DNA from: a virus
Virus record (IMG/VR): IMGVR_UViG_3300002835_000043
Location: 1 to 64,000 of that record
Strand: one strand, 5' to 3'
Length of the DNA: 64,000 nt
Part shown: positions 2,244 to 27,301 of the stretch, one piece after another
How positions within the stretch are numbered: position 1 is the first letter of the stretch
Layout of the letters: every line of letters starts with the position of its first letter
Translations under genes and position numbers: made by a program
The notes under the pieces: model-generated
Databases searched by the model: none
Told to the model about the DNA's origin: nothing
The model's input: only the letters and a program-made list of their open reading frames with translations

Positions 2244-2539
2244 AAGTCATCACACACAACCTCGACCATGCCATCATCACGATGGAGCAGACCGCAGGAT
2301 GCAAGTACCTCGGTGAAGATCATGTCCTTCAGCGTCCGGGCAGAACCATCGTCTACCATGTCTTTCAGAATCGCAGCAAGACGAGGACGGTGGCGTTGAA
2401 AACCATCGTGCTGCTGAACCTCGCAGACGCAATCGCTGCATCATGTCGATTGCATTCCGTTCAGGGACATGACAGACTGCCACAGATCATCGACTCGCAG
2501 GTTGAGTACGCTGACGCTGGTGGCTACAAGAGGACTTGA
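2240..2539 (+). CDS. AITTxE-array family member (99 aa)
   Basis: Start set at ATG 2240, which overlaps the previous stop; upstream in-frame codons would lie inside the neighbour. Near its N terminus it has H-A-I-I-T-M-E-Q, followed by C-K-Y-L-G and the strand T-I-V-Y-H-V-F. The C-terminal third differs from its relatives: a helix (LLNLADAIAAS) and a polar tail without the L-Y end motif. Unknown function. Confidence 0.65.
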   Translation: MKVITHNLDHAIITMEQTAGCKYLGEDHVLQRPGRTIVYHVFQNRSKTRTVALKTIVLLNLADAIAASCRLHSVQGHDRLPQIIDSQVEYADAGGYKRT

Positions 2540-2543
2540 GAAA

Positions 2544-2765
2544 ATGACACGCCCATTGACACCCGCTTCCGCCGCTGACAACTTTCACGATACTGACCGT
2601 TCCAAGCGTATCACGAAACTGATTCGCAACGGATATCTGTATTCCGGTTACGACTACCAATCGGGGCACTACATCTTCGTGGTTACTGAACCGAATGGTA
2701 GCACGATGACTGCTTTCCTGACGAAGCAAGGACTGATGAACGAGGCAGACCTGTATGCAGATTGA
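2544..2765 (+). CDS. AITTxE-array family member (73 aa)
   Basis: ATG 2544 begins four bases after the preceding stop. The helix K-R-I-T-K-L-I-R stands where other members have A-I-T-T; it is followed by N-G-Y-L-Y-S-G-Y, the strand H-Y-I-F-V-V-T-E-P, and the closing helix L-M-N-E-A-D-L-Y. The ending is shared almost exactly with the members ending at 1955 and 2952. It overlaps the next gene by 11 bases. Confidence 0.7.
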   Translation: MTRPLTPASAADNFHDTDRSKRITKLIRNGYLYSGYDYQSGHYIFVVTEPNGSTMTAFLTKQGLMNEADLYAD

Positions 2766-2952
2766 CCAAAACGACTGGCGCCTGCTGGCGGAGATCGCCG
2801 CGTTGAAACACGCAGGCTACCGCTTTCAAAGTTGTCATTCGTCTGGCATTACCGAACCCGTGTGGGTGTTCACGGTGATGATCGACGGCGTGGAGCATTC
2901 GATGGCGTTGAGCCGAAAGAAACTGAAAGAGGAGGCATCCCTGTATGTCTGA
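2755..2952 (+). CDS. AITTxE-array family member (65 aa)
   Basis: ATG 2755 lies within the end of the previous gene. This is the most compact member: helix L-A-E-I-A-A-L-K, then H-A-G-Y-R-F-Q-S, strand V-W-V-F-T-V-M-I, and closing helix L-K-E-E-A-S-L-Y. It appears to define the minimal domain of the family. It overlaps the next start by eight bases. Function unknown. Confidence 0.7.
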   Translation: MQIDQNDWRLLAEIAALKHAGYRFQSCHSSGITEPVWVFTVMIDGVEHSMALSRKKLKEEASLYV

Positions 2953-3244
2953 AAATCGTGAATATCCCATCAGCGTTGAGAGCATGGAGTGGGTCATAAA
3001 GTCCACCGCAGGAGTGTGGGGCATGACGATGACGGTAGACCAAGTTCAGGAAATGGCTACCACGCTAGAGGAGTGTGGGCATTGCAAACTGTTGAGTGTC
3101 CACCGCTGCCCCTCCGTCAATGGATTGAAGGAAATGTTCTACTTTCGCTTTCGCTTCGACCGCCACAACGACGAGATGCTTCTGACTGTTGCTACGCTCG
3201 CCGCGTATTCAGACCACGCTCGCAAGGGAAATCTAGGACTTTGA
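2945..3244 (+). CDS. AITTxE-array family member (99 aa)
   Basis: Start ATG 2945 is inside the end of the upstream gene. The element order is recognisable: M-A-T-T-L-E-E-C-G, K-L-L-S-V, and the strand F-Y-F-R-F-R-F. A long N-terminal extension (about 35 residues) precedes it, and the closing helix reads T-L-A-A-Y. Three cysteines or histidines near residues 44-55 could bind metal, though other members lack them. Confidence 0.65.
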   Translation: MSENREYPISVESMEWVIKSTAGVWGMTMTVDQVQEMATTLEECGHCKLLSVHRCPSVNGLKEMFYFRFRFDRHNDEMLLTVATLAAYSDHARKGNLGL

Positions 3245-3245
3245 C

Positions 3246-3488
3246 ATGATTCACTCAATCGAAAAGCAGGAACTCTACAACGCGATCACGACCATCGAGG
3301 AGTTGGATCATGTGCGTCATTCCGGTTGGGAAGTGCGTAATGGAAGGACTAACGCCATCTTCACTACCTTCGACCGTAGCAACGGACTCCCCATAGATCA
3401 GTTCTGTCTCACCGAGCAGGAGATTCTTGAAAGTGCAAAGCAACTCATCATTTACCCAAAGCGCCGAGGTATCCGTGGTCACATCTGA
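3246..3488 (+). CDS. AITTxE-array family member (80 aa)
   Basis: The ATG is two bases past the previous stop. The family motif is clear: N-A-I-T-T-I-E-E-L at residues 12-20, then H-S-G-W-E-V, strand A-I-F-T-T-F, and a closing helix L-T-E-Q-E-I-L-E-S-A. A basic tail (PKRRGIRGH) follows. The next gene starts inside this one, so the two are coupled. Function unknown. Confidence 0.7.
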   Translation: MIHSIEKQELYNAITTIEELDHVRHSGWEVRNGRTNAIFTTFDRSNGLPIDQFCLTEQEILESAKQLIIYPKRRGIRGHI

Positions 3489-3762
3489 TTCCCTGAAACC
3501 CGTCCTGTTCCTGCCCCCTGACGACAAGGTGCTGTCTGCTGCCATGCTCGGTCACGCCATCACCACGGTCGAGAATCAGCAGGGGTTCGGTCACGGCAAC
3601 GAGATCGTCTATGTCGGATACACGCACGACACCGACCTGAACAAGCGTATGTACCACTTCTACGCCAGCCTGCACGGCAAGGTGATGAAACTCACCTTCG
3701 ATGAGAAGGGAATCAGCAAACTCGCACTTGAAGAAATGAGACAGCAAGGACTGCCAAAATGA
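3475..3762 (+). CDS. AITTxE-array family member (95 aa)
   Basis: GTG 3475 is preferred because GAGGT lies six bases upstream and the start falls within the end of the preceding gene, as elsewhere in this array; an earlier TTG at 3427 would give a longer overlap. The product has G-H-A-I-T-T-V-E-N, the segment I-V-Y-V-G-Y, strand Y-H-F-Y-A-S, and a closing helix I-S-K-L-A-L-E-E-M. Function unknown. Confidence 0.65.
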   Translation: MVTSDSLKPVLFLPPDDKVLSAAMLGHAITTVENQQGFGHGNEIVYVGYTHDTDLNKRMYHFYASLHGKVMKLTFDEKGISKLALEEMRQQGLPK

Positions 3763-4016
3763 CAGAAAAACCAATCTACATCGACCCTGACTCTCATGCC
3801 ATGGTTCAGGTGTATGCCAACGCCATCACGAGCATGGAGGAAGCAGAAAACCTCACCTTCTTGCACTACGATCCCGACTTCGCATGGGTGGATCACGCAC
3901 GAAAGAAAGCACGAAAGGGAATGTTCGTGTTTCGGGACAATGGACGACACCGACCGTCGATGGTACACCACCGACTCGAACCGCTCGACTACCTTCTTCA
4001 GAACTACATCACATGA
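3759..4016 (+). CDS. AITTxE-array family member (85 aa)
   Basis: ATG 3759 overlaps the previous stop (ATGA). N-A-I-T-S-M-E-E-A-E lies at residues 21-30, followed by L-T-F-L-H-Y, a basic stretch (HARKKARKG), the strand M-F-V-F-R-D, and a closing helix L-E-P-L-D-Y-L-L. Its stop overlaps the next ATG at 4013. Unknown function. Confidence 0.7.
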   Translation: MTEKPIYIDPDSHAMVQVYANAITSMEEAENLTFLHYDPDFAWVDHARKKARKGMFVFRDNGRHRPSMVHHRLEPLDYLLQNYIT

Positions 4017-6919: not shown

Positions 6920-7433
6920 CTTTATTTGAACTTATGCACTTGTCACAGATCGAGCAGCTCGAGCACGCCCAGGACCAAATCGAGCAGCCATACATTTCAA
7001 ATATTAGAACTCAAATTATTCTATCAAATTGTAAAGGAAAATCAAGCATATTTGAAGCATTTGGTAGCATCAGAGACACCAGAGGAATACCTGGGACATC
7101 TATAGATGGCGGAATGGGTTCAAGTTCACATATTGAATTTCCCTGTATTCGCTCGCTATCTGCTTATATGGGCGAGTCTCAAACTGAAAAAAACAGTGTT
7201 TCGGCGTATGGGTGGGGGGTGAGCCTCTGCCGTATTAAGCACCCATCCTCTCTTTCTCTTTAACCCCTCAATTTTAAAAATACCCCCCTACCCCCAAATC
7301 CTATAAACTTTTCAAATAGGATCCCCCGTATCCAAATTTAAAAAACACACCCCCACCCCCAAAACTGTAAATACTTTCTATTAGGATCCCCCACTCCCTA
7401 ATTTACTAAATACACATAAAAGGAACTATACCC
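6920..7433. other. Composition boundary without convincing genes
   Basis: Open frames of 70 and 118 codons begin at 6893 and 6907, but these starts fall inside the terminator and they have mixed composition and no ribosome site, so I do not call them. Between about 6,990 and 7,260 the base composition falls from GC-rich to AT-rich. The end of the stretch carries tandem C-run repeats (7271-7415) and then the ribosome site AAAGGAACT of the 7434 gene. Confidence 0.55.
7271..7415. repeat. Imperfect tandem repeats with C-runs (about 64-bp period)
   Basis: Unit A (7271-7327) and unit B (7335-7392) both run A/T-rich start, then two C-runs, an A/T stretch and TAGGATCCCCC. A third partial unit starts at 7400 (AATTTACTAAATACAC). 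The 64-65 base spacing and the conserved order argue against chance. They sit just ahead of the first AT-rich gene, so may be control elements or traces of a joining event. Confidence 0.6.
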
Positions 7434-7853
7434 ATGAATATTAACGAATCATCCCTTAGAGAATATGTAAATAATGTCGTAAAGAGCATTTTAGAAGATG
7501 TTTTTGATAGTCCTACATCAGCAGCAGCAAGTAGAGCAAATGTCAAAAAAGCAACAAAGGTATTGGGAGCAAGTTCACCACATACAAAGTCATTAACTAA
7601 ACTTCACAATACTATGAAGAAAAGTCCTTATCACTATGGTATCGCTGATGATGAATTAGAAAGAAGAGAAATTGAAAAGTATGATGATTTGGATTCGCGT
7701 GATGTTCCTGCTTCAAAACCTACACTAACTCCAATGAAAGGAAAGGGATACGATGGATATGATGCTATATTTGGAGGTTCTAAGAAAGGTATAAACCTTG
7801 GAGTTATTAAGAAGGCTGCAGCAGCAATTAGTAAAAAGACTAAAGGTAAATAA
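7434..7853 (+). CDS. Putative structural / head-internal protein (139 aa)
   Basis: ATG 7434 follows AAAGGAACTATACCC. The N terminus has an amphipathic helix (SLREYVNNVVKSILEDVF) resembling the helical module in other small proteins of this region (8956, 11102, 26798). The rest is disordered and becomes basic, with glycine and lysine-rich patches and a K-rich end. By analogy with T4-like internal proteins this could be packaged in the capsid, but no family is recognised. Confidence 0.7.
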   Translation: MNINESSLREYVNNVVKSILEDVFDSPTSAAASRANVKKATKVLGASSPHTKSLTKLHNTMKKSPYHYGIADDELERREIEKYDDLDSRDVPASKPTLTPMKGKGYDGYDAIFGGSKKGINLGVIKKAAAAISKKTKGK

Positions 7854-7874
7854 AGACATTTAAAGAAATAAAAA

Positions 7875-7900
7875 ACCCCGCTTCGGCGGGGTTCTTTTTT
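7875..7900. terminator. Bidirectional terminator
   Basis: ACCCCGC (7875-7881), loop TTCG, GCGGGGT (7886-7892), followed by a T-rich run on the plus strand and preceded by an A-run serving the minus strand. It separates the convergent genes ending at 7853 (+) and 7930 (-). Confidence 0.9.
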
Positions 7901-7929
7901 ATAATTTAAAGAGTATTACTTACTCTCCT

Positions 7930-8322
7930 CTATTTCTTCTTTTTCATTCTTGCTGCTGCTGCTCCAGCACCAGTTACCGCACCGAGTCCAGCACCAGTAC
8001 TCAATCCTGCTGCTGCCGCTGCTGTTGCTTTCTTTGCTGCTTCTACTTTACCTACCATTGTCTTTTCGGGTTCTTTGAATGTGTGCTCTACTGATCCTGC
8101 TGCACTACCGGCTGCACCACCAAGACCTGCACCAAGACCTGCTGCTAAGAGTGCTGCTCCGAGTTTCTTTTTGATATTTTCTGTTAACTCTTCTTCATCT
8201 AGAAGATCTACTAAAATGTTCTCTAGAAGTTCTGAGTACTCTTGTTCTGACTTTAGTTCTTCTGAGAGTCTATGTGACTCGTTTAGGTAGTAATTGTATT
8301 TTTGTGCTAATGGATTGTTCAT
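7930..8322 (-). CDS. Putative head-internal protein with duplicated N-terminal module (130 aa)
   Basis: The start is taken as the ATG read from 8322, which has AAAGGAAAAC upstream; an upstream in-frame start lacks one. Residues 1-45 (MNNPLAQKYNYYLNESHRL onward) nearly duplicate the N terminus of the protein at 11102-11500, also at DNA level. L-N-E followed by S at residues 14-17 fits the L/I-x-E site cut by T4-type prohead proteases. The middle is glycine- and alanine-rich and hydrophobic (residues 60-85), and the end is basic (RMKKKK). Probably packaged in the prohead; inference. Confidence 0.7.
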   Translation of the reverse strand: MNNPLAQKYNYYLNESHRLSEELKSEQEYSELLENILVDLLDEEELTENIKKKLGAALLAAGLGAGLGGAAGSAAGSVEHTFKEPEKTMVGKVEAAKKATAAAAAGLSTGAGLGAVTGAGAAAARMKKKK

Positions 8323-8345
8323 TTGTTTTCCTTTAATCGTATTTA

Positions 8346-8579
8346 TTACTTCCAAAATCTTGTTTGATCTCTCCAGAACTTTGCATTTTCTTTGTTTTTT
8401 TGTGTTGGTTCAACTGCACGATTCAAAATAGCAAGTGCTCTTTCTTTTTTTATATTACCTTGCACATATTCTTTACTTTTTCGTGAACTTTTTAGTTTAT
8501 CACCATGAATATCTGCTGCTTGGAGCACTCTTTCTCTTCCTGGTGTTAAGAAATCTTTAAATTCAAAAAAAGTTTTCAT
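8346..8579 (-). CDS. Putative capsid-targeted small basic protein (77 aa)
   Basis: It begins MKTFFEFKDFL, closely matching the MKT(Y/F)xEF start of T4 internal proteins that directs them into the prohead core. The rest is highly basic and helical. It overlaps the upstream gene by four bases (ATGA), in a four-gene minus-strand operon (9156 to 7930) that ends at the bidirectional terminator. A clear L-x-E cleavage site is not seen here. Confidence 0.7.
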   Translation of the reverse strand: MKTFFEFKDFLTPGRERVLQAADIHGDKLKSSRKSKEYVQGNIKKERALAILNRAVEPTQKNKENAKFWRDQTRFWK

Positions 8580-8959
8580 TGTTGGTTTCTTCTTCTTTCA
8601 GCACTCAATTCTCTTTGAAATCCTTTTTGAGTGTTTCTTCTTACGGGTGTCATTGAAGGATCTGCTACTAATTTATCTTTACCGAAACCGCCTAAGTTTG
8701 AAGGTGATCCACCGCGTTCTGGATGATCAGCCCATGCATCTGGATGAAGACCACCGGGTTGAACATTAACACCATGAGACTTTAATTGGTGCAATGCTCT
8801 TTGTACCTTGGGTGTATTGCCGCTTGACATTGTTTCTCTTCTTGCAATATGTGCAATTTTTTCTAAACGACCAAGTTTATGTTTTGAAACACCAGGTATA
8901 TAAGAACCTACATTGTGGTCGTTTGATGCTTCATCCAAGTACTCTTTAAAATTCTTCAT
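8576..8959 (-). CDS. Putative capsid-targeted protein with L-D-E/A site (127 aa)
   Basis: The N terminus MKNFKEYLDEA matches a capsid-targeting sequence plus the protease consensus L-x-E followed by a small residue (L8-D9-E10, A11). The body is basic, rich in G, H, R and N, with little hydrophobic core (for example GRLEKIAHIARRE), consistent with a DNA-associated internal head protein. Coupled by four-base overlaps on both sides. Confidence 0.7.
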   Translation of the reverse strand: MKNFKEYLDEASNDHNVGSYIPGVSKHKLGRLEKIAHIARRETMSSGNTPKVQRALHQLKSHGVNVQPGGLHPDAWADHPERGGSPSNLGGFGKDKLVADPSMTPVRRNTQKGFQRELSAERRRNQQ

Positions 8960-9156
8960 TTCTTGACTCGTTCCTTGTATTTCTTAGTTTTTGCTTTTGG
9001 GATTTCTAAGTTGTTCTTTGCAGCATCTTCTGCAAGTTCTTCCATTAAATTCTTAAATCCCTCTTCACCGAATGCTTTTTCTAAAATTGCTTCCAGTAAT
9101 TGGGTGTATTCTACTTGTGCCTTGAGTTGTAACTCTAAATTTTCACTTTTGCTCAT
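8956..9156 (-). CDS. Small helical protein with LLExIL module (66 aa)
   Basis: First gene of the minus-strand operon, with AAGGAG well placed before its ATG. The helix V-E-Y-T-Q-L-L-E-A-I-L-E-K-A-F-G-E-E parallels E-Y-S-E-L-L-E-N-I-L-V in the proteins starting at 8322 and 11500. The tail is basic (KTKKYKERVKK). Likely a scaffold-interacting or head-internal protein by association. Confidence 0.65.
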   Translation of the reverse strand: MSKSENLELQLKAQVEYTQLLEAILEKAFGEEGFKNLMEELAEDAAKNNLEIPKAKTKKYKERVKK

Positions 9157-9177
9157 GATAATCTCCTTTTCTTTATG

Positions 9178-9185
9178 TATAAATA
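9178..9185 (+). promoter_or_regulatory. T4-type late promoter box TATAAATA
   Basis: Exact match to the T4 late consensus, 25 bases upstream of the ATG at 9210 in an intergenic gap. gp33, the co-activator needed for such promoters in T4, is encoded at 40260. Confidence 0.75.
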
Positions 9186-9209
9186 CGGTGATGAATGAAA
9201 ATCTAGGTT

Positions 9210-9980
9210 ATGGCTATTCCTTCTTACGGAAAGTCATCAAGCATGGCAGAACATAAGCATAATCATGCATCATGTGAAACCTGTGAAACTTTAAAAAATG
9301 AAGAAAAAGAAAAACTAAAGCAAGATTTAAAAAATTGCGCTGCGGCAAGAGATGCAGCAGAGCGTGAAAAAAAGGCGGAATTAGAAAAAACGGCTTTAGA
9401 AGCAGAAGAAAAAGTTGAAAAAATGAAAAAACAACTAATAGCCTTTCAATTGGCTACAGTTGTGGGTGTTACTATCCTCGGACAAGAAGCATTTGATAAG
9501 ATATTTGCAAAGGTAGAGGAAGTAAAAAGTGTCCAAGACAAGATCACTGGTATCAATTCGAGTGAAGAAAAGTCAGAAAAACCAAAAAAAGTGTCTAAAG
9601 ATGTAAGTTTTACAGAATTTAAACCAACTTCTTTACTAAAATTGACTGATTTTGGTGGTTTTGAGCAAAATATTGTTATAACCGACTCAAGAACTGATAA
9701 TAATTTACCTTGGATACCCTTAGAAAGCACAGTTGTATCATCTTTGATCACTAAACCAACTCAATTGATTGTAGATCCACCAATTTACACTCCACCAAAA
9801 GTTACAAACATCTCAACTTATGATTTTTCAGTGTTTATGATGGATATACCACCAGAGATTCCATCATTACAGTATCAACTTTTACCATTTCAAGATAGTC
9901 CTTTTGTATTTGGACAAAATGAATCAAATATTCCTTCACCTGGTGCATTTATGTTGTTGAGTATCGCAAGTTTTTTATAA
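9210..9980 (+). CDS. Coiled-coil membrane protein with PEP-CTERM-like end (256 aa)
   Basis: ATG 9210 is preferred (AGG upstream, late promoter at 9178); ATG 9243 is an alternative. Residues 20-75 form a charged coiled coil with two C-x2-C-like cysteines at its start. A hydrophobic segment (about residues 75-92, FQLATVVGVTILG) follows. The rest is Pro/Thr/Ile-rich and strand-like, and the protein ends in I-P-S-P-G-A-F-M-L-L-S-I-A-S-F-L, which resembles the P-x-P plus hydrophobic helix of PEP-CTERM sorting signals but lacks the final arginines. Function unknown. Confidence 0.65.
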   Translation: MAIPSYGKSSSMAEHKHNHASCETCETLKNEEKEKLKQDLKNCAAARDAAEREKKAELEKTALEAEEKVEKMKKQLIAFQLATVVGVTILGQEAFDKIFAKVEEVKSVQDKITGINSSEEKSEKPKKVSKDVSFTEFKPTSLLKLTDFGGFEQNIVITDSRTDNNLPWIPLESTVVSSLITKPTQLIVDPPIYTPPKVTNISTYDFSVFMMDIPPEIPSLQYQLLPFQDSPFVFGQNESNIPSPGAFMLLSIASFL

Positions 9981-10041
9981 TAAAAAGAAGAAGATGATGA
10001 ATTTTTAACTCAAAATCACATATTGTAAATATTAAACCCGC

Positions 10042-10070
10042 AAACTCCCACTTGACACGGTGGGAGTTTT
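10042..10070 (+). terminator. Terminator after the 9210 gene
   Basis: AAACTCCCAC (10042-10051) pairs with GTGGGAG (10060-10066) and is followed by TTTT. The loop itself contains the -35 box of the next promoter. Confidence 0.75.
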
Positions 10071-10080
10071 GCTATATACC
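10052..10080 (+). promoter_or_regulatory. Sigma70-like promoter nested in the terminator
   Basis: Perfect TTGACA at 10052-10057, with TATACC at 10075-10080 (17-base spacer) or TATATA at 10073 (15). The -35 box lies in the terminator loop and its descending arm forms the spacer. It drives the outer-membrane protein gene at 10125. Confidence 0.75.
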
Positions 10081-10124
10081 ACTACATCCCTTCGGAGTAG
10101 GGATTTTACAAATAAGGAGATAGA

Positions 10125-10862
10125 ATGAGAAACTTAATCGCTACTTTAGCACTTTCACTTTGCGGTGTTGCAGCAGCACAAAATGCTGCTCCTGCACCTG
10201 CACCAACTCCAGTTGTATCAAACATTTCTGTCGAGGAAGGTCTAACCTTCTGGGGCAAGAAGAATGTAGATACAGTTGTCGAACTAGACTCAACCGTAAA
10301 GGGTAAGTTGTTCGACATGGCAGGTTGGCATGTCACTGTACCAGTTTACTCACAAGATTATACTGGTTACGGTGCAATTGATCTTGGTTTAGATTACGCA
10401 GTTCTAAGCAAGGTCAATTTCCTTGGTTCTGTCACTAATGTCGCTGTTGAGGGTGGTGTTTGGTTACCAACTGGCTCTGCTGGTTATGGTACTGATAATG
10501 TCAACCCACACATCGGTGCAAATTATGACATGACTTGGGGTGCAGTAGTTTACACCCAAACATTTGATTATCGTTTCAACGGTGATGTAGCATATAGCCC
10601 AGTTTTTGGCAATGCTGCTACTTACTTGGTAAACGCAGAATCATTTGTTGCATACAAGTGGAACACACTTTCAGTCGGTGTTGACCTAAATCAATGGTAC
10701 ACCGAAGGTAGTGATGTTGCATTCCTCGGTCCTAAGGCTGTTTGGAATGTGTCCAACAATGTTGATGTCAACGCAGGATTTGGTATTCCTGTTTGGCAAA
10801 ATGTTGCTGCAGGCAACGAAAACAGTTGGAATGTTACTTTAGGTCTTGGAATCAATTTCTAA
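10125..10862 (+). CDS. Predicted outer-membrane beta-barrel protein (245 aa)
   Basis: Good ribosome site (AAGGAGATAGA). A classical signal peptide covers residues 1-19 (MRNLIATLALSLCGVAAAQ), then a short Ala-Pro linker, then alternating polar/aromatic strands, and the protein ends in L-G-L-G-I-N-F, with the terminal phenylalanine used by outer-membrane barrels for assembly. It thus looks like a porin-like barrel of about 8-10 strands. Phage-encoded barrels (Lom, phage PA-2 porin) alter the host surface, often against superinfection. Base composition is higher in GC than most neighbours, perhaps reflecting high expression or transfer from a host. Confidence 0.8.
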   Translation: MRNLIATLALSLCGVAAAQNAAPAPAPTPVVSNISVEEGLTFWGKKNVDTVVELDSTVKGKLFDMAGWHVTVPVYSQDYTGYGAIDLGLDYAVLSKVNFLGSVTNVAVEGGVWLPTGSAGYGTDNVNPHIGANYDMTWGAVVYTQTFDYRFNGDVAYSPVFGNAATYLVNAESFVAYKWNTLSVGVDLNQWYTEGSDVAFLGPKAVWNVSNNVDVNAGFGIPVWQNVAAGNENSWNVTLGLGINF

Positions 10863-10885
10863 TTTTATTTTAAAGGAGATTTACT

Positions 10886-11026
10886 ATGAACAAGAATACT
10901 TGTCCAATCACTGGTTCTTTCTGCTGGAAGAACCCACTTCAACTAGTCGCTTTCCTTGCACTCCTACCATACGCCATGAAGGGCGTTGCTTGGATCACCA
11001 AGGGAGTTGCTGGTTGGTTTAACTGA
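10886..11026 (+). CDS. Small membrane protein (46 aa)
   Basis: ATG 10886 after AAAGGAGATTTACT. The product has two short hydrophobic stretches (LQLVAFLALLPYAM, then WITKGVAGW) and two N-terminal cysteines. It is 24 bases downstream of the barrel gene and ends before a terminator, so the two share a transcript. It may assist or accompany the barrel; function unknown. Confidence 0.7.
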   Translation: MNKNTCPITGSFCWKNPLQLVAFLALLPYAMKGVAWITKGVAGWFN

Positions 11027-11052
11027 GTTTAACTAACAATATACTCCGAAGC

Positions 11053-11078
11053 AAAAACCCCGCTTACGCGGGGTTTTT
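11053..11078. terminator. Bidirectional terminator
   Basis: AAAAACCCCGC (11053-11063), loop TTAC, GCGGGGTTTTT (11068-11078). It closes the plus-strand barrel operon and the convergent minus-strand operon ending at 11102. Confidence 0.9.
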
Positions 11079-11101
11079 CTTTTACAATCTGTTATTGTTT
11101 A

Positions 11102-11500
11102 TTATTTTACAATTTTTCCACCCTTGCCATAAAGTTTCTTGCTGCTTCGTTCCTTACGAATTGTGTTTGCTAATTTAATTTCTTGTGCTGCAATTCTTGC
11201 TGCTTTATTATGTGCGGCATCGGCACTGTCTGCAGAACCCATTTCACCTTCTCTCCAAGCATCTGCTGAAGCTCTCATATACTTATTTCTTAAATTTCTT
11301 TTTTCTTGGTTAGTTTCTGTTGCACGCTCTGGTGTTTGAGCCATATCCTCAAACAATCCGTAGAATGCTTCTTCACCGATTAGTTCTACTAGAATGTTCT
11401 CTAGGAGTTCTGAGTATTCGGTTTCGTTTTGGAGTTCCTCTGAAAGTCTATGTGATTCGTTTAGGTAGTAATTATACTTTTGTGCTAATGGGTTGTTCAT
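11102..11500 (-). CDS. Paralogue of the 7930-8322 protein (132 aa)
   Basis: Residues 1-40 are almost the same as those of the protein starting at 8322 (MNNPLAQKYNYYLNESHRL, then E-Y-S-E-L-L-E-N-I-L-V), after which the two diverge completely: this copy continues with a polar, basic helix and ends KLYGKGGKIVK. The shared part includes the L-N-E/S protease-like site. A module shared by otherwise unrelated tails suggests a targeting signal. Third gene of the minus operon that starts at 12590. Confidence 0.7.
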   Translation of the reverse strand: MNNPLAQKYNYYLNESHRLSEELQNETEYSELLENILVELIGEEAFYGLFEDMAQTPERATETNQEKRNLRNKYMRASADAWREGEMGSADSADAAHNKAARIAAQEIKLANTIRKERSSKKLYGKGGKIVK

Positions 11501-11502
11501 TT

Positions 11503-11718
11503 TTAGTTTCCTTTATTAAGTTTTTCTTGACTTTTTTCCTGATCTCTCATTCTTTTCTGTTGTGCTGCTTCACCTGCTGGTGTAACTCCTTGACCTTCAC
11601 GGTGTGTGTCACGAACACCTAAATCAATACCAGACTTTCTTTGAAGTCTTGCGAGTTCAGCATCATTTGCTCTCTTTGCAGCATTTTCCCACATTTTAAC
11701 ATGTTCGTCTTTATTCAT
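11503..11718 (-). CDS. Small, charged hypothetical protein (71 aa)
   Basis: It lies between two putative head-internal genes, overlapping the upstream one by four bases and leaving two bases to the downstream one. The product is extremely polar, with helix-forming K/E/A/Q stretches (RANDAELARLQRKSG, AQQKRMRDQEKSQEK) and almost no hydrophobic core, so probably disordered or coiled. Likely packaged or scaffold-like given its context; not recognised. Confidence 0.65.
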   Translation of the reverse strand: MNKDEHVKMWENAAKRANDAELARLQRKSGIDLGVRDTHREGQGVTPAGEAAQQKRMRDQEKSQEKLNKGN

Positions 11719-12590
11719 TTTTGGTTTCCTTTTTTCTTCTTGTTCTTTAGTTTACGCTCTCTATATGCATTTGCAATTGCTTGTGCTGCACGAGGATCAT
11801 AAGTATCTTTTGTTTTTTCTTCTGATAGTTTACCTTCACGCTTCATTTGAAGAGCAGCAGCAACTGCTCTCTTTTGAGGATATCCCTTATCCTTTATGAG
11901 ATGACGAATCTCTGAAGAAACCTTCTTGAATTTTTCTAATAATGTTTCTTCTTTTACATTCATTGCTCGCTTGATACCTTTGACAGCATTTGCTTGTTGT
12001 TTGCCTGTGAGCGAAGCGTAGTGCTTTCCAGAACCGTACATCATGGACGATAGTTGTGAACCACGCTTTGCAACATATGCGTCCTTTGTTGCTTTACTGA
12101 TCTCATCAATTTGCTCTACTGATTCTTTTTGATAATCAGATTTTTCCATTCCATCGGATATACCAGATGCTTTTCTAAATCTCTGTGCATCGAAGTTGGG
12201 ATTTGATTTGTAAAAATACATTGCAGCCTTCTTGTGCTCTGCTGGTCTTTCCTCTGGACGAAGATTTGCAATTGCCTTAGCAACTTGAACCATGTGTTTT
12301 CTGGTTGATCTCTTTGGAACTTTGATACCAACTAAAGTTTCAACATCTTCATTTACTTTCTTTTTAGCAATTGCTTTACCGATTGCTTTTCTACGGTTTA
12401 GGAGGTACTTATCAGTATCATCAACTATACCGTTATTATCTACATCTGAATCTTCCTTACCTACTGGATCTAATGCTACTTTCTTTGCTTCATCTAAACG
12501 AGCAACTAATTCTTCAATTACTAAAATTAGTGCTTCATTCTCTGTTTTTAAAGATTCAATCAGTTGATCAATATTATTTGTATTTGACAT
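11715..12590 (-). CDS. Putative head-internal protein with dockerin-like calcium loop (291 aa)
   Basis: First gene after a minus-strand late promoter. An N-terminal coiled coil (residues 8-35) is followed by D-x-D-x-D-N-N-G-x-x-D (DSDVDNNGIVDDTD, about residues 48-61), matching EF-hand/dockerin calcium loops, then Y-L-L-N-R-R-K-A-I. The remainder is basic, helical and repetitive in K/A, with two segments (G-Y-P-Q-K-R-A-V-A-A-A-L and a K-rich end) of the kind seen in phage head-associated proteins. Several L-x-E triplets could be protease sites. Role inside the head is inferred. Confidence 0.7.
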   Translation of the reverse strand: MSNTNNIDQLIESLKTENEALILVIEELVARLDEAKKVALDPVGKEDSDVDNNGIVDDTDKYLLNRRKAIGKAIAKKKVNEDVETLVGIKVPKRSTRKHMVQVAKAIANLRPEERPAEHKKAAMYFYKSNPNFDAQRFRKASGISDGMEKSDYQKESVEQIDEISKATKDAYVAKRGSQLSSMMYGSGKHYASLTGKQQANAVKGIKRAMNVKEETLLEKFKKVSSEIRHLIKDKGYPQKRAVAAALQMKREGKLSEEKTKDTYDPRAAQAIANAYRERKLKNKKKKGNQK

Positions 12591-12611
12591 GGGTATATCT
12601 TCCTTTTAGGT

Positions 12612-12619
12612 TATTTATA
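12612..12619 (-). promoter_or_regulatory. T4-type late promoter box (minus strand)
   Basis: TATTTATA on the plus strand reads TATAAATA on the minus strand, 22 bases from the ATG at 12590, followed by AAAGGAAG as ribosome site. It would drive the three-gene minus operon down to 11102. Confidence 0.75.
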
Positions 12620-12668
12620 AAACCTTTGACTTGTATACATACTGTGCCAAGGATAATAAAGATCTATT

Positions 12669-13778
12669 ATGGATATACTAAAAACCCTAAAAGAAGAGCA
12701 AAAAGAGTACCATTTAACTCTTTTAGAAGACATTCAGGACAGAGATGGTGGTTCTGTAACAATGATCCCAGGGAAAAGCAGTCCTGCTGCTGAAACTCTC
12801 TTTCCAACCTCATATCCAAGAGATGCAAAGAAAATTATTCTAAAAAGAATTCCAACAACAAGTATGGAAGAATTCTTAATGAGATTGCAACTCATTCAAA
12901 ACATGCAAGCACAACAAGAAGCAGAACAACAAGAACAACAACCAGACGAAGAACAAGTTGCTGCAAATGAAGAATTTTTGAATAGTGTTCTTACTTTTTT
13001 AAGTGAAAAAAAAGTTTTTAATATGTTTGGACCTAAAACAATGAATACTCTTGCAGCATTATCGGTTGCAGGTGGTATAGGTCTTGGTGGAAAAGCATTT
13101 GAAAAGAGTATTGATAGTAAAGATAATCCAACATCAAGTAAGGTATCTTTAAGCAAAGCACCAGAAAAACAAACTTTAAAAATAAACGATTTAAAGAAAT
13201 CAACTGAAAAACCAGTAGAAGCAAAAGAAGAAAAACCAACAAATGTAGTTGGTGATTTGCTCGTCCCACATTTAAAAGAAATGGAAGGATGGAGAGCAAG
13301 AAGATATAAGGATAGTAAGGGACTTCCTACAGTTGGTCATGGTGCATTGATTGATGGAAGTTTTGTTGGTACAATGGAAAAAGTCTTCCCACACCAATCC
13401 AAAGAGTGGAGACAAAAAGTAGCAGCAGGAAATATGGAATTAACCGCTGCTCAAGGACACGAACTTCTAACACATCAAGCAAGACAAAAACATGATCAAG
13501 TAAGAGATATTATTGGTCATGAAACATTTGATAGTATGCATCCAAATTTAAGAATGCATATTGCATCTGAGCATTTTAGAGGTATGATAAAGAAATCACC
13601 AAAGGCACTTGCACTAATCCGTAAAGGTGATTTGAAGGGTGCAAGTAAAGAATATTTGAACGCCGATGATTATAGAGAGAATACTGAAAATAGTATTGGA
13701 AAAAGAATGAAAAATCTTTCAGATGCTCTTGCAAAATATTCAGAAGGTGTTAAAATACCACAAACGACCGAAAAATAA
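12669..13778 (+). CDS. GH24 (T4-type) lysozyme with long N-terminal extension (369 aa)
   Basis: The C-terminal domain (about residues 197-360) matches T4 lysozyme: E206, D215 and T221 keep the E-x8-D-x5-T spacing of the catalytic triad, followed by V-G-H-G. It should cleave the beta-1,4 bond between MurNAc and GlcNAc. The N-terminal 195 residues are acidic and Q-rich (residues 78-100), contain E-F-L-N-S-V-L-T-F-L and a glycine-rich hydrophobic stretch (128-141), then a K/E-rich linker. No export signal is present. In T4 the virion lysozyme is a domain of gp5; here the hub protein lacks it, so this enzyme may be virion-borne, or may be the lysis endolysin. Confidence 0.85.
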   Translation: MDILKTLKEEQKEYHLTLLEDIQDRDGGSVTMIPGKSSPAAETLFPTSYPRDAKKIILKRIPTTSMEEFLMRLQLIQNMQAQQEAEQQEQQPDEEQVAANEEFLNSVLTFLSEKKVFNMFGPKTMNTLAALSVAGGIGLGGKAFEKSIDSKDNPTSSKVSLSKAPEKQTLKINDLKKSTEKPVEAKEEKPTNVVGDLLVPHLKEMEGWRARRYKDSKGLPTVGHGALIDGSFVGTMEKVFPHQSKEWRQKVAAGNMELTAAQGHELLTHQARQKHDQVRDIIGHETFDSMHPNLRMHIASEHFRGMIKKSPKALALIRKGDLKGASKEYLNADDYRENTENSIGKRMKNLSDALAKYSEGVKIPQTTEK

Positions 13779-13794
13779 TTAAAGGAGATTGGGT

Positions 13795-14325
13795 ATGAGT
13801 GATCAGATGAATACTATGGACTTTGAAACATTTGTTAAAACTAATCAAGTTTTCCCCAATCAACCAATTAAAGAACAACAAACAAATCAGGAAGATAATA
13901 AAATTTCTACTCCCACTAGTAGAGGAAATGTTGTTATACCAACTAAAATTGAAATAAAGCAATCTTTAATTCACAATCAAGGTGTTTTCGCAAAAGAACA
14001 AATATTAGAAGGTGAACTTATTGAGATTGCTCCTCTTCTTAAATTAGAATGGAGAATGCAATACCAACACGATCCAATAATTAAAAGTTACATTTGGCCA
14101 AATTTAAGTTGTAATTGTAGAGACTGCAAAGTTCATAGTCCTATAGCATACATGCCAATGGGATATGCTCCATTATACAACCATTCAGAAACACCAAATG
14201 TTTCTTTAAAATTTAATTGGGCAGAACAAACAGTATCATTTAAAGCAATGAAAAATATTGAAATTGGAGAAGAACTTTTTATTCATTATTTAATAAAAAG
14301 TTGGAATCAAAATGATAAAAAATAA
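13795..14325 (+). CDS. SET-domain protein, putative protein-lysine methyltransferase (176 aa)
   Basis: ATG 13795 with AAGGAG eight bases upstream. After a 45-residue disordered, Q-rich start come SET elements: G-V-F-A-K-E-Q-I-L-E-G-E (63-74), N-H-S-x2-P-N (129-135), and I-x-I-G-E-E-L-x3-Y (155-165), the SAM-binding and knot motifs with the final tyrosine. C106-N-C-R-D-C111 may bind zinc. SET enzymes methylate lysines; in phages the substrate is unknown and could be a host or virion protein. Coupled to the next gene, which starts 14 bases before its stop. Confidence 0.8.
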   Translation: MSDQMNTMDFETFVKTNQVFPNQPIKEQQTNQEDNKISTPTSRGNVVIPTKIEIKQSLIHNQGVFAKEQILEGELIEIAPLLKLEWRMQYQHDPIIKSYIWPNLSCNCRDCKVHSPIAYMPMGYAPLYNHSETPNVSLKFNWAEQTVSFKAMKNIEIGEELFIHYLIKSWNQNDKK

Positions 14326-15080: not shown

Positions 15081-16139
15081 GTGAAGATTGAAGATGATGT
15101 AAAACTTGATTTTGCAGATGTTTTGATTCGTCCAAAGCGAAGTAACCTTGATAGTCGTAGCAAGGTTGATGTCGAACGCACATTTAAATTTAAACTACCC
15201 AGTGGTGAATTTGTATGGAGAGGTGTCCCTATTGTAGCCGCTAATATGGATACAGTTGGTACATTTGAAATGGCAAACTCTCTTGCAGATTACGGTGCTA
15301 TGTGTGCTATTCACAAGTATTACTCTGAAGAAGATTGGGGTCGTGAAGCAAGTTCATGGTTGAGAAAACATTCTGGTCTTTGTGGATTGATTTATACAAT
15401 GGGAATGGGAAACGATTCCACAACATTAACAGAAATTCAAAAAGCAGAAAAGATATTAAATGCACATAAGCATGTTCGGTTTATTTGTCTTGATGTTGCA
15501 AATGGATATACTGAAAAGTTTGTAAATTATGTTAAAACCATTCGTGGTTTATTTCCAGATCATGTTATTATTGCAGGTAATGTTGTTACCCGTGAGATGA
15601 CTGAAGCACTGATTCTTTCTGGTGCAAACATCATCAAGGCAGGAATTGGACCAGGATCTGTCTGCACCACTCGTAAGGTTGCTGGTGTGGGTTATCCTCA
15701 ACTCTCCTGCATCATGGAGTGTGCTGATGCAGCACATGGGCTTGGTGGTTATGTGCTATCAGATGGTGGTTGTACTTGTCCGGGTGATGTAGCAAAGGCA
15801 TTTGGTGCTGGTGCAGACTTTATTATGATTGGTGGTATGTTTGCAGGAACTGATGAGTCTGCAGGACAAGAAACAGAGAACGGTAAAGAGTTCTATGGTA
15901 TGTCATCTGCTACAGCAATGGAAAAACATTCCGGTGGTGTTGCTACTTATCGTGCAGCAGAGGGTAAGAAGGTATTTGTTAAAAAGACTGGACCAGTTGC
16001 AAATATTATGCAACAGATTCTTGGTGGTGTCCGTTCTGCTTGCACATATGTTGGTGCAGCAAGACTTAAGGATCTGTCAAAGTGTACAACTTTTATTCGT
16101 GTCAATCGTCAGTTAAATAACATATTTCAAGAAAATTAA
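15081..16139 (+). CDS. guaC: GMP reductase
   Basis: The 352-residue protein has the IMPDH/GMP reductase barrel. The active-site loop [13 protein letters not shown] (186-198, catalytic C195) followed by G-V-G-Y-P-Q is diagnostic of GMP reductase, and S-D-G-G-C (about 227) and I-G-G-M-F-A-G line the phosphate site. There is no CBS insertion, and length fits GuaC. It converts GMP and NADPH to IMP and ammonia. With the PurA-like enzyme at 16942 it forms a route from guanylate to adenylate. The start is GTG or ATG near 15081 with AAAGGAAAC upstream. Confidence 0.92.
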
Positions 16140-16682: not shown

Positions 16683-16949
16683 ATGATTGACAATCCGTAT
16701 AATGAACTGAACGATCATACCTTTCTGATATATCTTGCACAGAATGATTACATGATTGATGGTCACTTTCTTCCTGAAGGCAAACGACTGATGGAGATTG
16801 CTAATAAATTACAGGAGAGAGCAATGTTTATTTTTGGTGACGGTAAATCTGAACCAATCATAGACTTCAAAGCAGAAAAATACAAGAAGTCTCAGGAAGC
16901 AATGGATAGACTCGCACAACTTGATGAGGAGTTGGGATTAAATGATTGA
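16683..16949 (+). CDS. Hypothetical helical protein (88 aa)
   Basis: ATG 16683 has AGGAGAATAATA directly upstream; the open frame extends back into the tRNA and is rejected. The product is acidic and mostly helical (FKAEKYKKSQEAMDRLAQLD), with a small N-terminal region rich in N and D. It overlaps the purA start by eight bases, so the two are co-translated; perhaps a small partner of that enzyme, but this is only context. Confidence 0.7.
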   Translation: MIDNPYNELNDHTFLIYLAQNDYMIDGHFLPEGKRLMEIANKLQERAMFIFGDGKSEPIIDFKAEKYKKSQEAMDRLAQLDEELGLND

Positions 16950-17934
16950 TTATGTAGATGTGATATATGGTTTAGCATGGGGCGATGAAGGCAAGGGAAA
17001 GATTTCTAATGCTCTTGCTCCAAAATATGATTATGTTTGTCGTTGGAACGGTGGACCAAATGCTGGTCACACTGTTTATGTAAATGGACAAAAATTTAAA
17101 ACTCATATTATTCCATCCGGTATCTTTGCAGGTAAGAAGTGTGTAATTGGACCGGGATGTGTAATTAACCCAGATAAATTCTTTGAAGAGATCCGTGGAC
17201 TTCGTGCAGCAGGATTTGATACTTCTCTTATCAAAATTCATCCAAATGCACATATTATCACCGAAGAACATATTGAGTGGGACAAGAAGAATCTTGGTCA
17301 CTTAGGAACAACTTCTCAAGGAATTGCTCCTTGCTATTCAGATAAGATGTTGCGTAGAGGTAGGAGAGCAAAGGAATATTTTATTTCGGAGTGGTTGTGG
17401 GATGGTGAACTATCAGGTAGAGTGCTTTGTGAAGGAGCACAAAGTGTTTGGCTTGATATTGATCATGGTGATTATCCATTCGTAACTAGTAGTTCAACAA
17501 TGCCATACTCTGCATGTTCTCTTGGTTTCTCTCCGAAGAAGATTCGCAGATTGATTGGTGTTGCAAAGGCATATGATACAAAGAGTGGTAAAGATCCACT
17601 CTTCCCCGAAACATTATGGAATGATCCCGTACTGAATCGAATTATTGAGGAGGGTCAAGAATTTGGTTCTACTACGGGTCGTAAACGATTGGTGAATTGG
17701 TTGAACCTTGATAAGTTGAAGAAGTCTATCGTCTTATCGGGTTGTACTGAACTCATCATAAATAAGTGTGATGTTCTCAAGAAGGTTGGAGAATTTAAGG
17801 TCATTCATGGAAATGAATACATGAATTGTACAAGTTTTGCTATGATGTCTGCTTATATTCAAGATACTTTAATGTTTAGTAGTGGTTCGGATTTACATGA
17901 AATTACTTTCTCTGGTGATAAGGAAAGTATTTGA
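16942..17934 (+). CDS. purA: Adenylosuccinate synthetase (PurA-like, short form)
   Basis: W-G-D-E-G-K-G-K (13-20) is the GTP-binding loop with catalytic D15, and N-A-G-H-T (40-44) supplies the catalytic His43; G-A-Q-S-V-W-L-D and T-T-G-R-K-R are also conserved. It joins IMP and aspartate using GTP, giving adenylosuccinate. At 330 residues it is about 100 shorter than typical bacterial PurA and is nearer the length of archaeal PurA and phage PurZ. PurZ enzymes, which make the 2-aminoadenine precursor, usually replace the catalytic Asp; here it is kept, favouring a PurA (or a PurZ0-like intermediate) role. Neighbouring guaC supplies IMP. Confidence 0.88.
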   Translation: MIDYVDVIYGLAWGDEGKGKISNALAPKYDYVCRWNGGPNAGHTVYVNGQKFKTHIIPSGIFAGKKCVIGPGCVINPDKFFEEIRGLRAAGFDTSLIKIHPNAHIITEEHIEWDKKNLGHLGTTSQGIAPCYSDKMLRRGRRAKEYFISEWLWDGELSGRVLCEGAQSVWLDIDHGDYPFVTSSSTMPYSACSLGFSPKKIRRLIGVAKAYDTKSGKDPLFPETLWNDPVLNRIIEEGQEFGSTTGRKRLVNWLNLDKLKKSIVLSGCTELIINKCDVLKKVGEFKVIHGNEYMNCTSFAMMSAYIQDTLMFSSGSDLHEITFSGDKESI

Positions 17935-23929: not shown

Positions 23930-24195
23930 ATCTTTGATATCGTTGATCTTCAATGAAAGACAATCAGGACAGGGGTTCGATTCCCCTCGGCTCCACTTGA
24001 CGGGGCTGTACAGGTATTCGACTGGTGTTTAGTAAGGAAAAGGGAGATATTCGGGACAGGCAACGAGTCTCGTTAAAAAATAGTTGTAAACAATAATTGC
24101 TAACGAACTAGCAATGGCTGCTTGAAGCAGTGGGGAATGATTCACCCGCATCTGAACGAATCACGATTTGCAGTCAGAAATGATTGCAAATCATT
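23930..24195 (+). ncRNA. ssrA: Circularly permuted (two-piece) tmRNA
   Basis: The acceptor piece comes first: P2 strand AAAGACAATCAG (23956-23967), T arm AGGGG-TTCGATT-CCCCT (23971-23987), acceptor strand CGGCTCC (23988-23994) and discriminator A. After only six bases the coding piece begins with GGGGCTG (24002-24008), which pairs with that acceptor strand, then the conserved GGTATTCGAC and CTGGTGTTT (24022-24030), which pairs with the P2 strand. A reading frame at 24099-24125 gives A-N-E-L-A-M-A-A and TGA, like a proteolysis tag. A hairpin (24165-24192) probably ends it. tmRNA frees stalled ribosomes with SmpB. Outer ends are approximate. Confidence 0.88.
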
Positions 24196-25637: not shown

Positions 25638-25645
25638 TATAAATA
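25638..25645 (+). promoter_or_regulatory. T4-type late promoter box TATAAATA
   Basis: Exact consensus one base after the previous stop and 24 bases ahead of the ATG at 25670, followed by AAAAGGAAC. Confidence 0.8.
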
Positions 25646-25669: not shown

Positions 25670-26590
25670 ATGAAGACATTTAAAGAATTTAGTCAATTAG
25701 ACGAAGGTATTTTAGATACCGTTAAGGATTTAGTAAAATCCATCGGTAGAGGTATTGGCAAAGGTGTAGTTGGTGCTGCTAAGTATGGAGCACAAGCACT
25801 TGGTGCAATTCCTAGTGGTCTAATTGGTGGATTAAAATCTGGAGTTGGCGGAGGTGGTGGTTATGGTGGTTATGGTATAACTCGTCGTGGTGGTGGTTCA
25901 AGTAAAAAAATTGAACAATTGAAGGCGGAATTAGCAAAAGCAAGAGTAGGAAGTAAACCATCTGGTAAACCAAAAGCACCAAAAGGAACTGGTACAAAAT
26001 TACCACCATCTGGTCTTGGTTCTAAACCAACAACTCCACCATCTGGAGCACCAACAAAGGTTCCATCACCAACAGGGTCTGCTCCAGTACCACCAGCAAC
26101 ACCAACACCAGCAGTTCCTGCTCCAGCAGCACCAGTTCCTGCTCCAGTTAAAACACTAACAAAGGCAGAAAAGAAAGATAGAAGAGATGCTGCAAGAACA
26201 GTTGGTGGTGTAACGAGTAGACTAGGAAAAATTGAATCAAATCCTGATGATGATACATCTTTCCGTGCAGCAAGAACGGATCCAGCAAAAGAAAAACTCG
26301 CAGCAAAAGGTGTTGAATTAGAAACAAAGAGAGCAGCACTACAAACCAAAACTGGCAAATTAAGAAAAGGTGTAGACAAGAAAGATATTAAGTCCTTCAA
26401 TATAGATCAAGAAATGACTAAAGGTAATATTATCAAGAGTGGTAGTATTGCAAGTAATCCTGAATTAGCAAATAAACTTGCTGCAGCAAGAGCAAGAATA
26501 GCAAGAACTAAGGCAAAATCGGGTCAGGTTATGGGTGCTTATGAATCGACAGATTTACTTAATTCGGTAATGAAGTTCTTAAATAAGTAA
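25670..26590 (+). CDS. Putative capsid-targeted internal head protein (306 aa)
   Basis: The N terminus MKTFKEFSQLDEG combines the T4-type capsid-targeting start (MKTxxEF) with an L-x-E/G prohead protease site (L10-D-E12). Next come a Gly/Ala-rich helix, a glycine-tyrosine repeat region (residues 58-74), a long P/A/K-rich stretch (95-165), and a basic helical end with the terminal motif D-L-L-N-S-V-M-K-F-L. High positive charge and low complexity fit a DNA-condensing internal protein. Directly under a late promoter. Inference from signal and composition. Confidence 0.75.
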   Translation: MKTFKEFSQLDEGILDTVKDLVKSIGRGIGKGVVGAAKYGAQALGAIPSGLIGGLKSGVGGGGGYGGYGITRRGGGSSKKIEQLKAELAKARVGSKPSGKPKAPKGTGTKLPPSGLGSKPTTPPSGAPTKVPSPTGSAPVPPATPTPAVPAPAAPVPAPVKTLTKAEKKDRRDAARTVGGVTSRLGKIESNPDDDTSFRAARTDPAKEKLAAKGVELETKRAALQTKTGKLRKGVDKKDIKSFNIDQEMTKGNIIKSGSIASNPELANKLAAARARIARTKAKSGQVMGAYESTDLLNSVMKFLNK

Positions 26591-26797: not shown

Positions 26798-27301
26798 ATG
26801 GACACAAATAAGGAATGGTTGGATCAATTAATGGCAACATATACAAATATGAACAATCCAGTTTCTGAACCAGTAGCAGAAACCAAAGAAGAAGTTCTCA
26901 ATGAAGAATGCACAGAGTGCAATGAATCAGCAGAACCACAAGTAGAACAAACAGAAGAAGTTGAAGAATTAGAGGAAGAAACCTCAAATGAAGACTTTAT
27001 GGTATCTCTATTAGAAGATGTACAAGCAGCAGTTGGTGAAGATCTAACAGAAGAAGAGATCGAAGCAATTCTCGAAACCGTATCTCTAGTTGTTGAGGGT
27101 ATGGTCAAGAAGATGAAGAATGTAACAGAAGCACACATAGGAAAAAGTGGATTCCCTACTCAAGACGAACGCACATTTGCAGATAGAATAAAACTAGGTG
27201 CAAAACTTGATGCAAAAGGTGAAACTAAAGGTGCAGAAAAACGAGCATGGCACGCACTTGACAAATGGGCACAGAGAAAAGCAGAAAAGAAGAAGTATTG
27301 A
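26798..27301 (+). CDS. Acidic putative scaffold / head-core protein (167 aa)
   Basis: ATG 26798 after AATAGGAGCAAAAA. The first 100 residues are very acidic (E-rich, for example VEQTEEVEELEEE) and include the helical module F-M-V-S-L-L-E-D-V; L-x-E triplets are frequent. The last 60 residues turn basic. Acidic scaffold plus basic end is typical of T4-like prohead core or internal proteins. No firm family match. Confidence 0.65.
   Translation: MDTNKEWLDQLMATYTNMNNPVSEPVAETKEEVLNEECTECNESAEPQVEQTEEVEELEEETSNEDFMVSLLEDVQAAVGEDLTEEEIEAILETVSLVVEGMVKKMKNVTEAHIGKSGFPTQDERTFADRIKLGAKLDAKGETKGAEKRAWHALDKWAQRKAEKKKY

Follow-up and report, generated by a model that had tools for sequence, protein, structure and literature searches.

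Several small proteins encoded between positions 7,434 and 13,778 of an uncultured virus genome begin like the internal head proteins of phage T4, which raises the question of whether they enter the head through a capsid-targeting sequence (CTS), are cut there and are injected with the DNA. The window (the whole stretch of DNA analyzed, 64,000 bases) comprises bases 1 to 64000 of a 118,301-base virus record, the remainder of which was read as stretches L002 to L004. The record is that of an uncultured T4-type myovirus and encodes terminase, portal, tail sheath, tube, and neck proteins, as well as a major head protein. The prohead protease gp21, which the earlier note had proposed to look for elsewhere in the genome, was indeed found: a gp21-type gene at 99998-100654 of the record gives a PF03420 match (E = 1.8e-32) at 100028-100501 and a match to the PHROG head maturation protease (3.5e-75, PHROG profiles). 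A gp22-type scaffold gene and a gene for a small prohead core protein are also in the record (profile matches: PHROG 237, head scaffolding protein, 5.5e-55; PHROG 1064, prohead, 2.3e-6), and an LREA site is present in the phage's own gp23. We consider it likely (probability about 0.8) that 8576 and 25670, and probably also 7930 and 11102, encode internal head proteins of the T4 type and that 8346 is loaded without being processed (Table 1); this reading is drawn from the sequence and developed below.

Table 1. Genes and late promoter motifs discussed in the text (positions in the window; genes are named by their lower coordinate; a slash marks the proposed cut).
Feature	Position	Strand	Description
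7434	7434..7853	+	139-aa basic protein, no leader; orthologues in L129 and L138
7930	7930..8322	-	130 aa; N-terminus MNNPLAQKYNYYLNE/S, offset CTS core; glycine/alanine-rich body
8346	8346..8579	-	77-aa basic protein; start MKTFFEFKDFLTPG (MKTFFEF); N-terminus MKTFFEFKDFLTPGRER
8576	8576..8959	-	127 aa; strict CTS leader MKNFKEYLDE/A; sequence MKNFKEYLDEASNDHN
8956	8956..9156	-	66 aa; first gene of the 9156-7930 operon, no leader
11102	11102..11500	-	132-aa paralogue of 7930; N-terminus in common, body unrelated
11503	11503..11718	-	71-aa basic protein, no leader; kept in L129 and L138
11715	11715..12590	-	291 aa; DSDVDNNGIVDDTDKYL segment, no leader
12669	12669..13778	+	369 aa; T4-type lysozyme domain at the C-terminus, preceded by a hydrophobic, glycine-rich stretch
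25670	25670..26590	+	306 aa; CTS leader MKTFKEFSQLDE/G; sequence MKTFKEFSQLDEGILD
Late promoter motif TATAAATA	12612..12619	-	T4-type, 29 nt ahead of operon 12590-11102
Late promoter motif TATAAATA	25638..25645	+	T4-type, 32 nt upstream of 25670

The N-terminal sequences quoted in the earlier note are all present in the window, and its assignment of a T4 internal-protein leader followed by an L-x-E site was borne out for 8576 and 25670, both of which start with MKxFKE[FY]. The leader of 8576 matches the T4 CTS position for position, with LDE/A at residues 8 to 10 (the T4 spacing) and agreement with T4 IPIII at residues 4, 7, 8, and 10; the predicted mature form has 117 aa and a pI of 10.7. In 25670, LDE/G occupies residues 10 to 12, two residues being added relative to the T4 CTS, and the predicted mature form (294 aa, pI 10.4) has a glycine-rich N-terminal segment. 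A 316-aa orthologue in L147 keeps both the leader and LDEG, and the same leader-with-insert form is found in L158/L176. Residues 13 to 37 of 25670 match a model of frog antimicrobial peptides below the Pfam cutoff, the match starting exactly at the predicted cut. The leader nearest to that of 8576 is the near-identical MKNFKEYLAESSRDHN, which precedes a different body near a terminase gene in L005/L006. Searches of both proteins with tblastn against annotated phages yielded no match. Both are very probably T4-type internal proteins, which would be loaded through the CTS, cut by a gp21-type protease, and injected with the DNA.

The paralogous pair 7930 and 11102 calls for more caution. For 7930, the ATG at 8322 is preferable to the listed TTG start, and both proteins then share the N-terminus MNNPLAQKYNYYLNESHRLSEEL. 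The L-N-E/S reported for them in the earlier note stands (LNE/S, LNE at residues 13 to 15); the core YxxYLNE/S (residues 9 to 16) has the CTS-core spacing and is shifted five residues further in than in T4, so that targeting is plausible only. The first 23 codons of the two genes differ by 7 synonymous and 0 nonsynonymous changes, and throughout the family the first 23 residues remain constant while the body changes. Conservation nevertheless extends to about residue 50, well beyond the proposed cut, and a folded or core-forming segment fits this as well as a leader does. It may be, although we find it less probable, that only 8576 and 25670 are packaged and that 7930, 11102, 8956, and others are prohead core or assembly proteins sharing a core-forming helix, with LNE being one incidental L-x-E site among many. 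The conserved segment is partly common to the leaderless 8956, in which the stretch EYTQLLEAIL resembles residues 22 to 73 of 11102 (8956 orthologues are 38% to 40% identical to 11102); the predicted mature forms of 7930 and 11102 are not basic (pI about 6), unlike T4 internal proteins; and in L138, A stands in place of the core residue Y9. Set against these points, YxxYLNE/S is N-terminal in both copies and occurs nowhere else in the cluster, and the bodies vary like cargo behind a start that tolerates synonymous change only. On balance, we lean slightly toward 7930 and 11102 being T4-type internal proteins that would be loaded by the CTS, cut, and injected.

For 8346, the earlier note had claimed the leader followed by L-x-E, and only the first part held: aromatic residues occupy positions 4 and 7 of this basic protein (pI 10.2), and L-x-E is absent after the leader, as it is in the orthologues MKSFKDFLTPG (L129) and MKDFKGFLTPG (L138). 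In T4 IPIII, targeting depends mainly on residues 4 and 7, whereas residues 8 and 10 matter for processing; with aspartate at position 10, the protein is still targeted but no longer processed (PMC9026906). By this residue rule, 8346 retains the targeting residues without the processing ones; it and its orthologues, lacking L-x-E, therefore look targeted but uncleaved. That the protein enters the head and stays uncut is a tentative proposal, to which we give somewhat less than even odds.

Among the remaining genes of the cluster, 11715, 11503, 8956, and 7434 carry no leader, and these four and 12669 are candidates for packaging only by virtue of their neighborhood. A megablast search of window positions 7000 to 14000 against annotated phages returned no match, and among the cluster bodies, PHROGs and Pfam gave matches below 0.001 for 11715 and 12669 only. 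The former matches PHROG 4359 (6.3e-15) and PHROG 38880 (6.1e-13); its ends are constant and its middle is variable, being deleted in L128 and L136 and, in L138, exchanged for a segment with 50% identity to window positions 26798-27301. The lysozyme domain of 12669 matches PF00959 (4.2e-6, residues 203 to 285), and orthologues of the protein are 74% to 89% identical. Between the two minus-strand operons lies a plus-strand gene (10125-10862) for a protein of 245 aa that starts like a signal peptide, contains beta-barrel-like repeats, is 87% to 94% identical in relatives and has no match in Pfam or NCBIfam. A SET-domain gene (13795-14325, plus strand; PF00856, 1.4e-12) adjoins the cluster and is kept in relatives. 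Further along the same strand, the tRNA region contains genes for a GMP reductase (15081-16139) and, beside it, an adenylosuccinate synthetase (16942-17934) of the PurA type, the PurZ model scoring far under its cutoff; a permuted tmRNA gene (23936-24125, plus strand; RF04321, 87.6 bits; predicted tag ANELAMAA) lies within the phage tRNA array.

Contigs L127 to L129 and L134 to L138 have gene order in common with the window. In L129 and L138, no homologue of 8576 was found among the called genes, and the genes that flank it in the window (where 8576 overlaps each by four bases) are adjacent. Instead, L129 carries a gene starting MKSFKEYLQEE between the orthologues of 7930 and 7434; L120/L128, a single contig, carries one starting MKNFKEFLLEK at the lysozyme gene, and in L130, which is more distant, three leader-like genes lie near one another. 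As read from these sequences, close relatives thus carry differing leader genes in differing places of one syntenic locus. Elsewhere in L129, a leader protein (10642-11355, minus strand) contains the stretch LDGTHRVAKAL, ParB-like by eye and without Pfam support, and matches PHROG 17560 (unknown function, 8.8e-13). At about 7000 to 7400 of the window, GC content falls to 0.37 from a level of about 0.53, and the contigs of close relatives stop nearby, which may mark either another module or a junction made in assembly.

The T4-type late motif TATAAATA precedes 25670 and the 12590-11102 operon (Table 1) and also lies near the neck, tube, and scaffold genes. Six of its 20 occurrences in the record fall 15 to 65 nt upstream of a start, versus 0.7 expected, with the gene number (165) being an estimate and the six motifs having been assigned by hand. 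The 9156-7930 operon, which holds 8576, has no TATAAATA and only the variant TATACATA, and leader genes of other viruses showed no significant enrichment of the late promoter ahead of them.

We also scanned viral contigs with the strict leader, which recovered at least 120 stretches, and with MKTFKE[FY], leaving the downstream sequence free, which likewise recovered at least 120. The matches listed for the latter were grouped by body into 55 clusters on shared three-residue words, some of which may be distant relatives of one another. Among the matches listed, 47% of the 55 clusters have [LI]xE ending at residues 10 to 15, versus 4% to 12% (about 6%) in five subsequent intervals of the same clusters, and the P1' residue is A, S, or G in 15 of 25. 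Leaders differ in length, with the cut site remaining beside the body, as in MKTFKEF-LDE-SSLSR and MKTFKEF-CSQ-LDE-SSLSR of one family. At the sequence level, the leader thus behaves as a portable module coupled to L-x-E across many viruses.

Each of the nine records of at least 100 kb that bear a leader matches the protease family (G015 below the curated cutoff), a count made among leader-bearing records. The leader set includes ipIII of phage JS98 (the protein of L118), and other leader proteins match the ART-PolyVal, S-AdoMet lyase, NT5C, DnaJ, ExoX-like, and cytidyltransferase families. The most numerous family among the matches listed shows a weak resemblance to a PHROG of virion structural proteins, and Pseudomonas phage PA5oct encodes a homologue of it, EST35_0202, marked in its record as found by ESI-MS/MS; this protein begins MKSFRDYYDAS, without L-x-E, although PA5oct has the protease. 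Three 50-kb stretches of PA5oct encode two proteins that begin M[KR]x[FY]xx[FY], and both were detected by mass spectrometry, although 2/2 versus 62/163 is not significant (P = 0.15). In L028, four leader-bearing genes stand in tandem (2357-3910), one with a weak HAD-phosphatase-like match. A leader protein of L120 that we had read by eye as a lytic transglycosylase (ESRFD...GPAQLT) found no support in Pfam or a PDB sequence search, nor in its AlphaFold model (mean pLDDT 35).

Strict leaders number 1 in G000, 4 in G004, 4 in G005, 6 in G013, 6 in G017, and 0 to 3 in the others, some records being fragments. Given these counts, the set in this phage is not unusually large, contrary to the possibility raised in the earlier note: the record has 1 strict leader and 4 variants, versus 4 to 6 strict leaders in enteric T4-type phages.

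One of the T4 internal proteins is an injected factor acting against restriction, and membrane-active and wall-cutting proteins of the T7 gp14/15/16 type are also packaged in heads. In the mechanism that we envisage, the internal head proteins would be made late, and the N-terminal leader would dock each protein in the gp22-based prohead core via the aromatic positions 4 and 7. A gp21-type protease would then cleave after L-D-E or L-N-E, leaving the mature body in the head beside the DNA, along with which it would be injected; 8346, with targeting positions and no cut site, would be loaded unprocessed. Docking, cleavage, packaging, and injection in this phage are what we infer. The bodies may serve host take-over or anti-defence, as the examples of T4 IPI and Alt would suggest. 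The glycine-rich segments of 7930 and 25670, together with the lysozyme domain of 12669, invite the speculation that they assist passage through the envelope. A fuller version appears unlikely to hold as a whole: that the leader is a portable tag attached by uncultured T4-type phages to many unrelated proteins, making injected effectors recognizable from their sequence, with natural uncleavable (8346, EST35_0202) and offset (7930/11102) forms, and here loads an envelope-passage set of glycine-rich proteins plus a muramidase.

T4 gp22 is mostly left behind or degraded rather than injected. Were the leader only a T4-type assembly signal for core binding, its bearers could share that fate; docking and injection are separate steps, and the core proteins of T4 are likewise cut by gp21 (PMC9026906). 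We nonetheless judge this improbable, since an ADP-ribosyltransferase, a SAM lyase, and a DnaJ protein bear leaders and would make little sense as scaffold, and one homologue was found in PA5oct virions. The leader families moreover include ipIII, a known mature-head protein.

The core pattern [FY]xx[FYHW][LIVM]xE occurs five times in the 79 called window proteins (beyond 6.9 kb), and three occurrences (8576, 7930, and 11102) are N-terminal, versus 0.23 expected from the internal rate; 7930 and 11102 being paralogues, the fair count is two independent events, and with the pair counted once, P = 0.02. Written as codons, the pattern MKx[FY]xx[FY][LIVMF]xE matched 33 times in 16 virus records, versus 0 for the backward pattern. 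That short helical N-termini merely resemble each other by chance is therefore extremely improbable, and already disfavored for 8576 and 25670: L-x-E away from a leader carries little weight, given how often it occurs in proteins as rich in E and L as these, and the site claimed for 8346 is absent, but the backward pattern, the N-terminal enrichment, the strong coupling of leader and [LI]xE over unrelated bodies (among the matches listed), and the LDEG kept in L147 all argue against it.

Because the leader is legible in sequence and coupled to a protease site, the injected cargo of uncultured T4-type viruses may become listable; among the leader proteins sampled here there are already nucleotide enzymes as well as an ADP-ribosyltransferase, a SAM lyase, and a DnaJ protein. 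The CTS has been suggested as an evolutionary route by which T4-like phages bring various proteins into the capsid (PMC9026906); the general idea being already published, the gain lies in breadth and in uncleaved variants, not in a new principle.

Compared with known systems, the likeness to ejected core proteins of the T7 gp14/15/16 type is one of segment type only, no homology being seen. With T4 gp22, gp67, and gp68, 7930, 11102, and 8956 share helical E-rich N-terminal segments, and L-x-E sites are also common to both; unlike in that system, the record has separate gp22-type and small core proteins, and the cluster proteins match none of these families. The set departs from the T4 internal proteins in that 25670 has two extra leader residues, 8346 has no cut site, the 7930/11102 core lies five residues further in on nonbasic proteins, and the bodies, as far as these searches reached, are unrelated to the T4 internal proteins. 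As with IPI, IPII, and IPIII, however, the phage has the leader MK-x-aromatic-x-x-aromatic-[LI]-x-E/[A/G/S]; unrelated bodies follow a common leader, 8576 and 25670 are basic after the predicted cut, and a gp21-type protease and a gp22-type core are encoded in the same genome.
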